Source: Gemmatimonadota bacterium
GTDB lineage: Bacteria > Gemmatimonadota > Gemmatimonadetes > Gemmatimonadales > Gemmatimonadaceae
Direction of reading: 5' to 3'
DNA: 64,000 bases
Assembly (NCBI GenBank): GCA_026387915.1
Contig: JAPLKS010000009.1
Span: 1-64,000 of the forward strand
The first letter of the stretch is position 1; every line of letters begins with the position of its first letter. Below, in pieces: positions 1,412 to 59,531 of the stretch. A program made the translations under genes and the position numbers. Below the pieces are notes generated by a model. The model was not told the origin of the DNA. It did no database searches and saw only the letters and a program-made list of their open reading frames with translations.

Positions 1412-1926
1412 TTGACCACCGTCGTGTGTGGATTGTGGCAGTCGGTGCACTTGGACGCGGCCGTATATTTGCCGCCGGTCTCGATGATGTGCCGCTCGAC
1501 GTTCTTGATGCTCTTGAGCGTGCTGGGCCGCTCAAATGTTTTGAGGTGACACCACTCGCACTCTTGCATGCCGCTGGTGACGCGGAGTGCTTTGGGATTC
1601 TTTTTGATTACGTCTGGATAGGCGTCCACGGAGTCTTCGCTCATGACTTTCACGTGGAGCAGGCCAGGGCCGTGGCAGTTCTCGCACTGCGGCGTATGAT
1701 GCTTGCCTTTGGCCCAGGCGTCATTGATTTTGGCGTGGCAGTCGGAGCAGGCTTCGCTGCCGAGGTGGCGCGGTTCGCGCTTGGCGGCTTCAGGAATCGC
1801 GGAAGCCCGGAAGGGCCCTTGCGTACCAAAGTCTTTGGGCACCACTTGCGCGCGGGCGCCGAGAAACGCGATCACGACGATCGCGACGAGTCCGAAGAGT
1901 CGAACAAAGTGTCGTGCGTGCCCCAT
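1408..1926 (-). CDS. Four-haem c-type cytochrome, secreted
   Basis: About 172 residues with an N-terminal signal peptide (hydrophobic stretch after MGHARHF, ending near GARAQ) and four CxxCH haem motifs: CSDCH, CENCH, CEWCH and CTDCH. It is likely a periplasmic electron carrier. The ATG at 1926 is chosen over one 30 bp upstream because it places the signal peptide at the terminus. It follows the MtrB-like barrel gene across a 101-bp gap containing a strong hairpin, and overlaps the ferredoxin gene by four bases. In context it probably links the ferredoxin/NrfD quinone module to the decahaem cytochrome; this is inference from gene order. Confidence 0.85.
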   Translation of the reverse strand: MGHARHFVRLFGLVAIVVIAFLGARAQVVPKDFGTQGPFRASAIPEAAKREPRHLGSEACSDCHAKINDAWAKGKHHTPQCENCHGPGLLHVKVMSEDSVDAYPDVIKKNPKALRVTSGMQECEWCHLKTFERPSTLKSIKNVERHIIETGGKYTAASKCTDCHNPHTTVVK

Positions 1927-52223: not shown

Positions 52224-53897
52224 CTAGCTGAGCCCGACGATGTCCCCATCGGCGTCGATCGACATCCCCTCTGCCGCCGGCACCTTGGGGAGCCCAGGCA
52301 TGGTCATGATGTCACCGGCCTTCGCGACCACGAAGCCAGCCCCAGCCGACCCGTACACCTCATTGATCGTGATCCGGAAGCCCTTGGGCACGCAGAGCCG
52401 CGCCGGCTCGTCCGTGAGCGAGTACTGCGTCTTGGCAATGCACACCGGCGTTTCGCCGAGTCCAATGGAGGTCAGGTATTCGATGGCGCGTTCAGCCGCG
52501 GGCGCGTAGTCCACGCCATCGCCGCCGTACACCTTCTGCACGATCGTCTCAATCTTCTGTTTGATGGGCAACTTGGCATCGTACAACGGGGCGTAGTGTC
52601 CAGTCTTGGCGGCGAGCATCGCCAGCACTTCCTTGGCCAGTTCCTCGCCACCGGCACCGCCCTTAGCCCACACCTCCGTCAGAATCACCTTCACGCCGAG
52701 CTTGGCGGCGTAGTCTTGCACCATCTTGAGTTCCGCGTCGGTGTCGCTCAGGATGCGGTTGAGTGCCACCACAACTGGCACGCCGAACTGTTGCACATTT
52801 TTCACATGGTGGGCGAGGTGCGGCAGGCCGCGTTCAAGCGCACCCAAGTCTTCGGTCTTCAGATTCTTCTTGTCGAGTCCGCCCTGCATCTTGAGCGATC
52901 GAATCGTGGCGACCAGCACGGCAGCTTCGGGATTCAACCCGCCGAAGCGGCACTTGATGTCAAAGAATTTCTCGGCGCCAAGATCGCTGCCAAACCCGGC
53001 TTCCGTGACCACGACATCGCCGAGGGCCAATGCGGTCTTGGTCGCGATGATCGAGTTGCAGCCGTGCGCAATGTTACCGAACGGCCCAGCGTGAACGAGG
53101 GCAGGGCCTCCTTCGAGTGTCTGCACGAGGTTCGGGCGAATCGCATCCTTGAGCAACATCGCCATCGCGCCAGACGCTTTGATGTCGCGCGCACGTACGG
53201 GTTTGCGATCCTTGCCCGCCGTCGCGCCAATGATAATGCGGCCCAAACGTTCCTCAAGATCCTCGCGGCTCGACGACAGCGACAGGATCGCCATGACTTC
53301 GCTCGCGGGGATGATCACCCAATGCTCTTCACGCACCACGCCGTCGCCCACACCGCCGAGTCCGATCACGGCGTTCCGGAGCGCGCGATCATTCATGTCG
53401 ATGGTGCGCGGCCAGGTGATGCGTCGCGGGTCGAGGTTCGTCTCGTTCCCTTGCTGCAGATGATTGTCCATCATCGCCGACAACAGTGCATGCGCGCTTG
53501 AGATCGCGTGAAAGTCGCCCGTGAAATGGAGATTGATATCCTCCATTGGAATCACCTGCGAGTAGCCACCCCCTGCGGCACCGCCCTTCACGCCGAACAC
53601 CGGGCCGAGTGATGGCTCGCGAATGCAGAGTACGGCGTTGGTGCCAATCCGGCGCATCGCCTGCGCGAGACCAACGCTGACGGTGCTCTTGCCTTCGCCA
53701 GCTGGCGTTGGGCTGATGGCGGTGACCAGCACCAAGCGCCCCTTGGCCGGACGTTGCGACAACTCCAGGGGAAGCTTCGCCTTGAACTTGCCGTACTGGT
53801 CAATGTCGTCGGGCGTCAGCCCGAGATCAGCGGCGACTTCCGTGATGGGACGCGGCTTGGCGGCCTGGGCGATTTCAATGTCGGTCGGGAACGTCAT
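52224..53897 (-). CDS. fhs: Formate-tetrahydrofolate ligase
   Basis: 557 residues, the normal length, starting MTFPTDIEIAQAAKPRPI. The ATP site is seen in TPAGEGKSTVSVGLAQAM and further conserved blocks include GGAAGGGYSQVIPMEDINLHFTGD and TEAGFGSDLGAEKFFDIK. It converts formate, ATP and THF to 10-formyl-THF. It follows fdhD by 10 bp and ends the formate dehydrogenase operon, so formate can be both oxidised and channelled into one-carbon metabolism. An upstream in-frame extension to 54041 overlaps fdhD and is not used. Confidence 0.96.
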   Translation of the reverse strand: MTFPTDIEIAQAAKPRPITEVAADLGLTPDDIDQYGKFKAKLPLELSQRPAKGRLVLVTAISPTPAGEGKSTVSVGLAQAMRRIGTNAVLCIREPSLGPVFGVKGGAAGGGYSQVIPMEDINLHFTGDFHAISSAHALLSAMMDNHLQQGNETNLDPRRITWPRTIDMNDRALRNAVIGLGGVGDGVVREEHWVIIPASEVMAILSLSSSREDLEERLGRIIIGATAGKDRKPVRARDIKASGAMAMLLKDAIRPNLVQTLEGGPALVHAGPFGNIAHGCNSIIATKTALALGDVVVTEAGFGSDLGAEKFFDIKCRFGGLNPEAAVLVATIRSLKMQGGLDKKNLKTEDLGALERGLPHLAHHVKNVQQFGVPVVVALNRILSDTDAELKMVQDYAAKLGVKVILTEVWAKGGAGGEELAKEVLAMLAAKTGHYAPLYDAKLPIKQKIETIVQKVYGGDGVDYAPAAERAIEYLTSIGLGETPVCIAKTQYSLTDEPARLCVPKGFRITINEVYGSAGAGFVVAKAGDIMTMPGLPKVPAAEGMSIDADGDIVGLS

Positions 53898-53907
53898 GGT
53901 GTGGTGT

Positions 53908-54750
53908 TTAGGAAGTGAGAATGCGGGAAGGATGACAATACACATTCGCCGACTCCCCGCGCAGGAGGCCAACGAGCGTGATGCCGGCGCCGTCGCCGAG
54001 CCGTACGGCGAGTCCGGTGGGTCGTGAGATGGCCGCGACAATGGAGACGCCGGCGACCGCGGCTTTCTGGATGAGTTCGTAACTCAGACGACTGGTGAGC
54101 AACAAGAAGCCGCTCGCGGTGTCGGTGTCTGCGCGCCATAGAGCGCCGAGCACTTTGTCGAGCGCGTTGTGCCGGCCCACGTCCTCCCGCACCACGAGCA
54201 GCTCGCCGTCGGCTGACACCCAAGCTGCCGCGTGCACACTGTGCGTGTCTCGATTCAGTGTTTGCGAGGCGCCCAGCGACGCGCCCGCTCGGTAGAGTGC
54301 GGCGTCCGTCACCCGTTGCGTGCCGGTCACGGTGGGCACGGCACGCACGGCGTCGTCAATTGCTTCGACGCCGCACAGTCCACAACCGGTGCGACCGGTC
54401 AACGAGCGCGATCGCGCCGTGAGTTGATTCCGCACGGATTCCGCGACAGCGATACCGAGTTCGATGCCGCGGCTGTGGCGCGTGACCGTCACCTCGCCAA
54501 TCTCCTCGCGCGTTGCAACGATCCCTTCCGAGAGCGTGAAGCCAATCGCCAAATCTTCTAAGTCGCTTGGCGTACACATCATCACAGCGTGCGAATGCCC
54601 CGCATAGACAAAGGCCACGGGCACTTCCTCGGCGAGCGTCGCCTGGTGATCGTGCTTCACTCCACTAGCCACATGCACGAATGCACGAGCACTCGTCGGA
54701 GCCCCGTAGCCCACGCCAGGGTCAGCGCCGAGAGCGATTTCGTCAGCCAT
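53908..54750 (-). CDS. fdhD: Formate dehydrogenase accessory sulfurtransferase FdhD
   Basis: 280 residues from ATG 54750. The conserved Cys pair is in GRTGCGLCGVE, with VREDVGRHNALDKVLG and SRLSYELIQKAAVAG typical of FdhD. FdhD passes sulfur from IscS to the bis-MGD cofactor to give the essential sulfido ligand on Mo or W. It overlaps the upstream iron-sulphur subunit by 8 bp. A start at 54909 would overlap that gene extensively. Confidence 0.95.
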   Translation of the reverse strand: MADEIALGADPGVGYGAPTSARAFVHVASGVKHDHQATLAEEVPVAFVYAGHSHAVMMCTPSDLEDLAIGFTLSEGIVATREEIGEVTVTRHSRGIELGIAVAESVRNQLTARSRSLTGRTGCGLCGVEAIDDAVRAVPTVTGTQRVTDAALYRAGASLGASQTLNRDTHSVHAAAWVSADGELLVVREDVGRHNALDKVLGALWRADTDTASGFLLLTSRLSYELIQKAAVAGVSIVAAISRPTGLAVRLGDGAGITLVGLLRGESANVYCHPSRILTS

Positions 54751-55723
54751 CACGCGTCGTTGCGCTGTCCGCGCTCGGGCCAGGCTGCACGTACTGCCAG
54801 CCGAACCGGCCTTTGACGCACAAGTTGCCGAGTGTGATGGTGTTCTCGAGCGGCGAGGTTGCCTTGACGATCGTGTTGTCCTGCACATGCAAGCTGAGCG
54901 TGCAACCAACGCCGCAGTACGGGCAGATGGTGTCGGTTGTCGTTTGCGCGTCGGCGTTCCACGTACCCGCCGCGCGCATATCGAACTCCGGCTTGGCCAT
55001 CAACGCACCGGTCGGGCACACCGCAATACAGTTGCCGCAGTACACGCACGCGGAGTCGGGAAGCGACACCGCCATCTCGGTGGAGATGCGCGCGTTGAAA
55101 CCGCGCCCCGCCACCGCAATGGCAAAGGTGTTTTGGTGGTCCGTGCCACAGGCCTCTACGCACTTGTAGCAGAGGACGCACTTTGCGTAGTCGCGCACAT
55201 AGAGATCGTTGTCCACCTTCACCGGTTGGCCAACGGTGGCTGCGAAGTCGGGATCAGGAGCCGCGTGGTGTCCGGCGATCGCGGCATCACGTTCGCCTGA
55301 GAGCGCATGTGGCTTGGGCGGCCCGTAGCGCTCTGGCTTGCAGTCGTACTCCGCAAGCAACTCCGCCATTCCCGGCGTCGTGGAGAGGTCCACACTCGAG
55401 GCAAGAAACTCAAGCACGAGACGGCGCGCGTGGATGACTCGCGCTGATTTCGTGTACACCACCATACCGGCTTCTGCGGCGCGCGAACAACTCGGCGCCA
55501 ACACCCGCGCACCTTCTACCTCTACTACGCACAGTCGGCAAACGTTTACCGGACGCAGCGTCTCGAGAAAGCACAGGGTCGGAATCTCAATGCCGATCGT
55601 GCGGCAGGCGGCGAGAATCGTGGTACCTTCTTCCACCGTGACCGAACGACCATCGATCGTGAACGCCACCGGTTTCTTGGGCGCTCGTGCGGGCCGCTCG
55701 ATGGAAATCAGCGTCGTCGTCAT
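54743..55723 (-). CDS. Formate dehydrogenase iron-sulphur subunit, NuoG-N-like plus molybdopterin Fe4S4 domain
   Basis: 326 residues from ATG 55723 (ATGA overlap with the NuoEF-like gene). Domains in order: a 2Fe-2S ferredoxin with CRLC (about 50-105), a His/Cys region, two 4Fe-4S clusters (CVLCYKCVEAC, CVYCGNCIAVCP at about 180-245), and a C-terminal Fe4S4 domain (about 265-310) with CPYCGVGC and NLCVKGRFGW, normally the N-terminus of the molybdopterin-binding catalytic chain. The frame ends after GRFGW plus about 17 unrelated residues. So the part of FdhA that holds the cluster next to the active site is on this separate protein. Confidence 0.88.
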   Translation of the reverse strand: MTTTLISIERPARAPKKPVAFTIDGRSVTVEEGTTILAACRTIGIEIPTLCFLETLRPVNVCRLCVVEVEGARVLAPSCSRAAEAGMVVYTKSARVIHARRLVLEFLASSVDLSTTPGMAELLAEYDCKPERYGPPKPHALSGERDAAIAGHHAAPDPDFAATVGQPVKVDNDLYVRDYAKCVLCYKCVEACGTDHQNTFAIAVAGRGFNARISTEMAVSLPDSACVYCGNCIAVCPTGALMAKPEFDMRAAGTWNADAQTTTDTICPYCGVGCTLSLHVQDNTIVKATSPLENTITLGNLCVKGRFGWQYVQPGPSADSATTRDG

Positions 55724-57600
55724 GCGGTGCCTCCCTGAAACAGATGCAGGCGCTTGACCGCCGACTCCACGGCGGCGTACGCCGTCTGGCCGAGGCCGCA
55801 AATAGAGGCGTCGCGCATGGCCACGCCGATCTCTTCAAGCAAGGCAAACTCTGCTTCCGTCCCGCCGCGCGTCTTGCCGCGCGCCAAACGGTGCAGCGCC
55901 TCTTCTTGGCGGACGGTTCCAACGCGGCAGGGCACGCACTGGCCGCACGATTCATCTCGGAAGAACGCGGCAATACGGAGCACGGCCGCTTCGAGGTCCT
56001 GCGAGTCATCAAACACCATCACCACACCGGAACCGAGTGTGGTCTCTGCCGCTCGAGCGCCTTCAAGCGACAGCGGAATATCGGTATCCGCGGCCGGTAG
56101 GAATGTGCCCGCGGCGCCACCGAGGAGCACGGCACGCATCCGCGGCGACGCTCCTGCTGTGTGGAGCAGCGCCTTCAGTGAAGTTCCAAATGGTGCCTCG
56201 TACACGCCCGGCCGCTCCACGGCTCCGCTCAAGCAAAAGAGTCTCGTTCCCGTGGATTGCTCGGTGCCAGTAGCAGCAAATGCGGCGCCACCGTGTAACA
56301 CAATCGGCAGCACATTCGCGAGTGTTTCGACGTTGTTGACCAGCGTCGGTTTTCCAAATACACCGGATTGCACAGGGAAGGGTGGTTTGCTCCGCGGCTC
56401 GCCGCGCTTGCCTTCAATCGACTCAAACAACGCGGTCTCTTCGCCGCAGATGTACGCGCCCGCGCCGCGACGAATCTCGATGTCAAATCGGAATTCGCCA
56501 CCGAGAACACTCTCGCCGAGCAGGCCTGCCGCCCGCGCGTGATCGATCGCTCCCTGTAGCCGTTCGTTGGCCAGTGGGTACTCTGCGCGCAGATAGACGA
56601 ATCCGTGCTCGCAACCCGTGGCGAATGCCGCGATGGTCATGGCTTCAACAATCGCAAACGGATCGCCCGTGAGCAGCACGCGATCTTTGAAGGTGCCCGG
56701 CTCACTCTCATCAGCGTTGCAGATCAGATAGTGCGGGGTCGCGCTCTGCGTTCGTACCGCCTCCCACTTTCGTCCCGTTGGAAATGCGGCGCCTCCACGG
56801 CCCACCAGCTTGGACGCGGTCACCTCAGCGATGACGCCCTCTGCGCCGAGTTGCAGCGCGCGCGCGAGGGCCGTGTAGCCGCCAGCGTCGCGGTACGCAT
56901 CGAGCGACGTCGGGTCTACGACCCCAACACGCCGGAGCAGTACAAGCGAGGGATCTCCCACCTGCGGTACCACCGTGTTCGCCAGCGCGTCTGCGCCAGG
57001 TGCGGCACCGGCGAGCAAGGCGCGGGCCACATCAGGCGTCACGTGCCCTAGCAATCGCTCGACCGCAGGATCACCAGCGTCTGTGACGAGCACCGCCGGA
57101 GCACGATCGCACAGACCAAGGCACGGAGAATGCATCCACGCGGGCGTGTTGGCGTCGAGGTTCATGTGCGTACCCGACGGCTCATGCGCCACCGCAGAAC
57201 CACCGGCAGCCAGCAAGGCAGCTTCTACTTCGCGCCCTCCTTTGTCTCGGCAACCGACGTCGTCGCACATGTGCACTACGCGCCGAGGGCGCGGTGACGT
57301 GGCGAGCAACGCGTAGAACGTCGCAACGCCCCACGCCTCAGCGGGTGGCACCTGCAGTCGCTCGCACACATAACCCAAGCCACCCTCGCTGATCCACCCC
57401 ACGCGCGCCTGGAGCGCCTGCAGCGCCGGCACGAGTTCGTGGCGGCGTTCACGCATGGCACGCCCACCGTAGGCGAGGTGCGAGTCTCGCGCCGTGACGC
57501 GAGCTCCGCCATCCCAGCCCGAGGCTGGAGCTCCGAGCACCGCATCAACGGCAGCGCGTTCCGCTTCGGAGGGCACGGCGTCCAGCAGTCGGATATCCAT
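55720..57600 (-). CDS. NAD-dependent formate dehydrogenase flavin subunit, fused NuoE-NuoF
   Basis: 626 residues. The N-terminal NuoE-like domain (about 45-190) carries a 2Fe-2S site (MCDDVGC and PCLGLC). NuoF-like region follows with FMN/NADH motifs GRGGAAFPTGRKW and GAGAYICGEETAL, and a C-terminal 4Fe-4S site ESCGQCVPCR plus Cys in SICGLG. The arrangement is that of FdhB/FdsB-type or HoxEF-like diaphorase subunits and would transfer electrons between formate oxidation and NAD. Its ATG overlaps the last base of the fdhA stop (TGATG). Confidence 0.92.
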   Translation of the reverse strand: MDIRLLDAVPSEAERAAVDAVLGAPASGWDGGARVTARDSHLAYGGRAMRERRHELVPALQALQARVGWISEGGLGYVCERLQVPPAEAWGVATFYALLATSPRPRRVVHMCDDVGCRDKGGREVEAALLAAGGSAVAHEPSGTHMNLDANTPAWMHSPCLGLCDRAPAVLVTDAGDPAVERLLGHVTPDVARALLAGAAPGADALANTVVPQVGDPSLVLLRRVGVVDPTSLDAYRDAGGYTALARALQLGAEGVIAEVTASKLVGRGGAAFPTGRKWEAVRTQSATPHYLICNADESEPGTFKDRVLLTGDPFAIVEAMTIAAFATGCEHGFVYLRAEYPLANERLQGAIDHARAAGLLGESVLGGEFRFDIEIRRGAGAYICGEETALFESIEGKRGEPRSKPPFPVQSGVFGKPTLVNNVETLANVLPIVLHGGAAFAATGTEQSTGTRLFCLSGAVERPGVYEAPFGTSLKALLHTAGASPRMRAVLLGGAAGTFLPAADTDIPLSLEGARAAETTLGSGVVMVFDDSQDLEAAVLRIAAFFRDESCGQCVPCRVGTVRQEEALHRLARGKTRGGTEAEFALLEEIGVAMRDASICGLGQTAYAAVESAVKRLHLFQGGTA

Positions 57601-59531
57601 CAGCGCGCCCCGGCCGCAACGACGAGCGATTCAATGCGAACCGCACAGGCTTTAAATTCCGCCGTGCCAGACCGAAGGTCGTATGCGTCGTTGGTGAGCA
57701 CGTTGGTATCAACGCTATCTGGAAAATGAAATGTCATAAAAACCAGGCCAGCGCGCAGCGCGCGGTCGATCCGTACGGGCGCAGTGACCGCGCCGCGCCG
57801 AGAACTCACGCGCGCGAGATCCCCATCCGCAAACCCGAGCATCGCCGCATCTTCGGGTGACATATCAACCGTTTCGCCGTAATGCAGTGGCGACGCGTAT
57901 CCGCCCGTTTGCACACCCGTGTTGTACGACTCGAGCCGACGGCCGGTGGTGAGCAAAAACGGATACGCCGCATCGGGCTGCTCCGCGGGACCCGCATGCT
58001 CCACCACAGAGAACGGCGCCGGGCGTCCGCGCACGGGAGTCTCCCAGAGCCGTCCATGTAGGAACGTTTCGCCTGGGTGCGATTCGTCGGGGCAGGGCCA
58101 CTGAATGCCGCCCAACGATTCGAGACGCGAGTAGCTCATGCCGCCAGCGAAAGCAGGCGCCACCGTTCGGAACTCATTCCAGAGTTCCTCGGCGGTCGGA
58201 TTCCCGAGATCGGTGCCGAGTCGCCGCGCGAGCTCCGCGAGAATCCAGAGTTCATCGCGCGCCCCAGCTGGCGGTTCTTTTGCTTTGCGCACACGCTGGA
58301 CGCGGCGCTCGCTGTTGGTGACCGTCCCTTCGGCTTCGCACCAACTCGCCGTGGCGGGGAGCACCACGTGCGCGAGTTGCGCCGTCTTGGTGAGAAAGAT
58401 CTCCTGCACCACGAGGTGGTCGAGTCCGCCGAGGAGTCGCGCAACTTTATTGCCGTCCGCGTCGCTCTGCACGGGGTTCTCGCCGGCGCACAGCAGCGCT
58501 GTGATCTCGCCGTGCTCCATGGCGTGCAGCATCTCGGTGAGATTCTTGCCGTACTGCGGCTGAATCGGCACCCCCCAGTGTCGCTCAAACGCCTCGCGCA
58601 CCGTGGGGTCGAGAATGTCCTGAAAGCCAGGCAAGCGATTGGGAATCGCCCCCATGTCACCGCCGCCCTGCACATTGTTCTGCCCACGCAACGGATTGCA
58701 GCCGCAGGCCCAACGGCCCACGTGACCGGTGAGCAGACAGAGATTGATCAACGACAGCACGTTATCGACGGCGTTGTGGTGCTCGGTAATTCCGAGGGTC
58801 CAGCAGATCATCGCCTTGTCAGCTGTGGCGAAGGTGTGCGCGGCCTCGCGAATCGCGGTGGCCGGAATCCCCGTGAGCTGTTCCCCGACGTCGAGCGTGT
58901 AGGGCTCAACCGCCGCGCGGTACGCGTCAAAGCCCGTCGTGCCGTTCGCAATGAACGCCGAGTGCGCGAGTCCGGCGTGAATGATTTCGCGCGCCATCGT
59001 ATTCGACAGCGCAACGTCGGACCCCACGTTGAGCCCCATCCACACGTCCGCCCACTTAGCGGAATCGGTACGGCGAGGATCCATCACGTAGAGCCGCGTC
59101 CCATTGCGCACGCCTTTGAGCAGATGGTGAAACCAGATCGGGTGCGCGGCGCGCGCGTTCGATCCCCACAGGAAGACGACGTCCGTCTCTTCCACTTCCG
59201 CATAGGAGTTGGTGCCGCCTCCCGCTCCAAACACTGTCGCCAGACCGACGACGCTAGGGGCGTGTCACGTTCGATTACAGCTGTCGATGTTGTTGGTCTT
59301 GAACACCAACCGCGCGAGCTTGCCCGCGAGGAAGTTCATTTCGTTGGTGGACTTCGAGCAGCTGAAGATCCCCAGGGCGTTGGGACCACCGCGATCGAGA
59401 TTCCGCCGGAATCCCGCCGCGGCGACATCCAGTGCCTCATCCCACGTCGCCGAGCGCAACACGCCGCCCTCGCGAACCAAAGGCGTGGTCAGGCGCTGAT
59501 ACGCGCCGGCAGGAGCATTTTGACGTTTCAT
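57600..59531 (-). CDS. fdhA: Formate dehydrogenase catalytic subunit, selenoprotein (molybdopterin domains)
   Basis: 643 residues if the TGA at 59267-59265 is read as selenocysteine (Sec89). The frame runs without interruption through that TGA: the residues before it are NNIDSCNRT and after it HAPSVVGLAT, the exact active-site context of formate dehydrogenases, where Sec or Cys precedes His. Downstream come MPT-oxidoreductase motifs (VVFLWGSNARAAHP, GAIPNRLPGFQ, LPATASWCEAEGT) and a molydopterin dinucleotide-binding C-domain. The usual N-terminal Fe4S4 domain is missing and is found in the third gene of the operon. The start MKRQNAPAG has only a weak GAGA upstream. First gene of the operon. 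Confidence 0.9.
59236..59267 (-). promoter_or_regulatory. Selenocysteine UGA with SECIS-like hairpin
   Basis: TGA is at 59267-59265. Counting T as 1, positions 16-21 (GUCGUC) pair with 27-32 (GGCGAC), leaving loop GGUCU at 22-26. The GGU at 22-24 and U at 17 match, from memory, the positions of the SelB-binding bases in the Escherichia coli fdhF element. The hairpin is 59252-59236. selA/B/C/D genes are not in the window. Confidence 0.85.

Follow-up and report, generated by a model that had tools for sequence, protein, structure and literature searches.

A formate dehydrogenase gene in a Gemmatimonadota genome almost certainly inserts selenocysteine at an in-frame UGA codon. We come to this reading from the position of the codon, the conservation of a hairpin behind it and the selenocysteine machinery encoded in the same genome. 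The protein is a sound and essentially ordinary selenoprotein of known type in a little-studied phylum; its architecture, with an alpha chain split between two genes, is more unusual than its selenocysteine codon.

Catalytic gene and operon

The window, by which we mean the whole 64,000-nt stretch of DNA that was analysed, belongs to a genome of 3.58 Mb in 23 contigs whose nearest relatives are Gemmatimonadota. Positions 57600..59531 of its minus strand encode the catalytic (Mo/W-bis-MGD) subunit of a formate dehydrogenase, 643 aa in length with the motif UH...RGQ, the closest solved relatives of which are formate dehydrogenases and the formate dehydrogenase subunit of a CO2 reductase. Translated from 59531 to 57600, the frame is interrupted by a single TGA (59267-59265) and is open on both sides of it. 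A preliminary description had placed this TGA at the active-site selenocysteine position, and the alignment bears it out: within NNIDSCNRT-U-HAPSVVGL the codon (59265..59267, minus strand; predicted Sec89) occupies the metal-ligand position and lines up with the Cys or Sec ligand of relatives, as in the bacterial selenoprotein FdhA (UHxP). The frame is otherwise intact, and the relatives continue in frame past the TGA instead of being frame-shifted downstream, which that description had named as evidence that would speak against it.

The score of the catalytic subunit lies below the NCBIfam cut-off for Fdh-alpha, probably because the N-terminal Fe-S domain is encoded by another gene. The subunit aligns to residues 307-932 of FdsA and is without the Fe4S4 domain. 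That Mo-proximal domain and the motifs for one [2Fe-2S] and two [4Fe-4S] clusters make up a gene of their own, a division of the alpha chain that the preliminary description had missed (54743..55723, minus strand; matching FdsA 22-303), downstream of a beta subunit (55720..57600, minus strand) in which NuoE-like [2Fe-2S] and NuoF-like FMN/NADH domains are fused. The start of the Fe-S subunit at 55723 is a chosen ATG that overlaps the beta stop; its open frame extends to 55801. Also on the minus strand, with starts picked by inspection, are fdhD (53908..54750), encoding the sulfurtransferase for the bis-MGD cofactor, and a gene for formate-tetrahydrofolate ligase (52224..53897), which is probably in the same transcription unit as the formate dehydrogenase genes. 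Many actinobacterial loci have the ligase upstream of the formate dehydrogenase, whereas it lies downstream in the Gemmatimonadota window.

The order catalytic subunit, NuoEF-like beta, Fe-S subunit is seen again in Gemmatimonadota, Actinomycetota, Acidobacteriota, Chloroflexota and Planctomycetota, whether or not selenocysteine is present, and some of these loci include intervening genes or a contig end. More distant formate dehydrogenases of the phylum have frames of ~700-1550 codons, mostly 900-1100, lengths that suggest fusion; an extra TAG in some of these matches probably marks where the gene itself ends, as the matches concerned run a few residues further. All 16 Cys for the four clusters of the Fe-S subunit are kept in 53/53 relatives compared. 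A His-ligated [4Fe-4S] motif is absent from the window's Fe-S subunit, and the one pattern match among the 53 relatives (L058) falls in a different Cys motif. Papers on formate dehydrogenases, searched for a few terms, gave no account of an FdsA-type alpha chain divided in this way, and the layout may be an undescribed variant. We regard the chances as evenly balanced that these genes form a widespread, apparently undescribed NAD-linked subclass across several phyla, with a split alpha chain, the Mo-proximal [4Fe-4S] on a separate subunit without a His-ligated cluster, and an ancestral dependence on selenocysteine that gave way to Cys once, in actinobacteria, before the SECIS was lost. The split puts the Mo-proximal cluster on another chain and may interest those working on CO2 reduction.

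The genes most likely specify a NAD-linked formate dehydrogenase of the cytoplasm with a link to one-carbon metabolism, a role less certain than selenocysteine insertion. In the complex that the subunits would assemble, formate would be oxidised (or CO2 reduced) at a Mo or W atom liganded by Sec89, and electrons would travel by way of the separate Fe-S subunit, with its [4Fe-4S] and [2Fe-2S] clusters, to FMN in the NuoEF-like beta and on to NAD. FdhD would sulfurate the bis-MGD cofactor, and the neighbouring ligase, sharing formate as substrate, would link it to one-carbon metabolism. It is improbable, though by no means negligibly so, that selenocysteine is inserted into an enzyme that is not an NAD-linked formate dehydrogenase, one that uses another acceptor or acts physiologically as a CO2 reductase: the acceptor is read from the NuoEF-like subunit only, the alpha chain is split and the Fe-S subunit has no His-ligated cluster motif of the kind found in FdsA-type enzymes, but the FMN/NADH-binding NuoF domain, the UH...RGQ active site and the solved relatives named above all favour NAD-linked formate oxidation.

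SECIS hairpin and its conservation

With the U of UGA taken as nt 1, nt 16-32 read GUCGUC-GGUCU-GGCGAC (59236..59252, minus strand), where nt 16-21 pair with nt 27-32 in a 6-bp stem and nt 22-26 (59246-59242) form the loop GGUCU. We identify it as a bacterial SECIS hairpin from its fold and its comparative conservation. In the stretch that was folded, the minimum-energy structure includes the hairpin, although shuffled sequences match it in folding energy (z -0.51), so that single-sequence folding proves nothing by itself. Scanned at Rfam gathering thresholds, the window yielded tRNA-Leu only; the SECIS is thus covered by no Rfam family at that threshold. The bSECIS model of PMC13188914 calls for a loop of 3-9 nt with G in its first positions, located 16-37 nt from UGA, and the Gemmatimonadota hairpin agrees with it in downstream position, loop and distance. 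The preliminary description gave the hairpin correctly and likened its GGU at nt 22-24 to Escherichia coli fdhF, a comparison that holds against the E. coli genome collection: a 41-nt fdhF stretch, matched at a coverage of at least 80%, is present in 5368 of 5426 genomes, with annotated fdhF among the matches listed, and its GGU is in the same register as that of the Gemmatimonadota gene.

Relatives were taken from genome contigs and from the phylum and, with the window counted, comprised 95 sequences with TGA and 16 with TGC or TGT. All six pairs and the loop GGTCT are present in each of the 81 distinct TGA sequences (81/81), whereas the six pairs are complete in none of the 16 distinct Cys sequences and the loop is retained in one; conservation of this kind is not due to chance. 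Within the stem, the pair nt 18/30 flips between C-G and G-C via synonymous changes (GTC..GCG to GTG..GCC), and the remaining pairs vary as U-G, C-G and U-A. When synonymous codons were permuted among the sequences, the six pairs formed in a mean of 63% and a maximum of 77%, against 100% observed, a contrast inflated by the relatedness of the sequences. In a set of 18 sequences less than 88% identical, every pair forms, and the covariation score, the number of paired cells and the number of cells changed on both sides all exceed those of 500/500 shuffles. Sliding the register by +3 also gave fairly high pairing (81.5%).

Across 93 aligned genes, the invariant Gly96 over the loop is GGT in 100% and the invariant Leu there is CTG in 99%, whereas the commonest single codon reaches at most 81% in the other 25 invariant Gly columns and at most 67% in the other invariant Leu columns; the constraint acts on RNA, not protein. 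The Sec and Cys orthologues amount to a natural experiment in which the SECIS appears as an RNA constraint distinct from that on the protein. One internal stop does split the frame, as would be seen in a pseudogene whose active-site codon had mutated to a stop, or after a sequencing error. However, 81 distinct relatives, drawn from several phyla and assemblies, have the same TGA, their frames stay open downstream of it and they lie in operons; synonymous codon choice across the hairpin is constrained as well. Conservation of both the TGA and the hairpin refutes the pseudogene reading, to which we give almost no credence.

Selenocysteine machinery and its distribution

A selenocysteine pathway had been predicted from the gene alone, and a search of the genome confirmed it, finding selA, selB, selD and tRNA-Sec (selC). 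SelB is encoded in one 646-codon frame; the active site of SelD appears to be Cys, not Sec; and the tRNA-Sec adjoins selD, scores 83 bits (gathering score 47) and has the anticodon UCA. In the mechanism we propose, SelB and Sec-tRNA(UCA) would bind the hairpin right after UGA and insert Sec89. That code reassignment or a suppressor tRNA instead makes the UGA encode some other amino acid is exceedingly improbable: the frame would be open whatever residue TGA encodes, but TGA also ends the catalytic gene itself and therefore serves as a normal stop, tRNA-Sec and all the sel genes are present, and orthologues with a decayed hairpin have Cys in place of the TGA residue.

Selenocysteine had been called unexpected for such a bacterium, which proved wrong, since selA is above cut-off in 220 of the 298 Gemmatimonadota genomes sampled (74%). 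A close homologue of the formate dehydrogenase (at least 64% identity) occurs in 33 genomes of the phylum, each with exactly one TGA, and selA is over cut-off in 31 of them; the two others, G210 and G038, are both draft assemblies with no strong selA match. Among the genomes listed with a more distant TGA-bearing formate dehydrogenase, selA was found in 54/54. In other phyla it is over cut-off in 19 of 21 TGA genomes versus 4 of 14 Cys genomes. On a quick tree with a midpoint root, all Cys forms make one actinobacterial clade, sister to the Allonocardiopsis Sec form and nested in the Sec clade, for which a single Sec-to-Cys change in actinobacteria would be the simplest reading.

A literature search combining Gemmatimonadota, Gemmatimonadetes or Gemmatimonas with selenocysteine returned no paper on the subject, as judged by title or the start of the abstract, and the selenoproteome papers examined do not mention Gemmatimonadota in their main text. 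With selenocysteine use common in genomes of the phylum but described in no paper that we found, genes of this kind are at risk of being mistaken for truncated or broken ones.

Two further family searches gave a partial sample of the genome's selenoproteome, and the genome probably holds at least two selenoprotein genes besides the formate dehydrogenase. A peroxiredoxin (AhpC/TSA; FFPKARTKG-U-TVQM) on contig C7 has a TGA at the TxGU position (L136, G000:C7:317500-321000, locus 2072-2074), sits beside a tandem Cys paralogue (FFPKARTTGCTAQM) and shares its TGA with many relatives; it is a probable second selenoprotein. The probable third is an AhpD/CMD-like protein with an in-frame TGA in a CRYU motif (L137, G000:C22:244500-247500, locus 1473-1475, minus strand), a TGA found in 6/6 genomes with a match. 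Both motifs fall within selenoprotein families listed in PMC13188914.

Comparison with known systems

The Gemmatimonadota enzyme shares with E. coli FdhF (formate dehydrogenase H) the UH...RGQ active site, the TGACAC context of the Sec codon and GGUCU at nt 22-26. The two differ in the sequence of the hairpin stem and in the [4Fe-4S] domain, which is part of FdhF itself and is on another polypeptide here. FdhF is not known to have a NuoEF-like partner.

With FdsABG (Rhodobacter capsulatus, 6TGA; Cupriavidus necator) the enzyme has its domain set in common, namely the Fe-S and catalytic parts of FdsA, the NuoF-like beta and the NuoE-like gamma. The NuoE/NuoF-like partner is in the operon as in those systems, though with gamma and beta fused, and the His-ligated [4Fe-4S] motif is missing. 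FdsA, which carries Cys, is one alpha chain with N-terminal Fe-S domains; the Gemmatimonadota counterpart is divided between two genes in the order catalytic, beta, Fe-S, and has Sec. The actinobacterial orthologues of the Nonomuraea, Lentzea, Kutzneria and Nocardiopsis type have the same split operon at 61-65% identity and differ in carrying Cys for Sec, without the SECIS hairpin.
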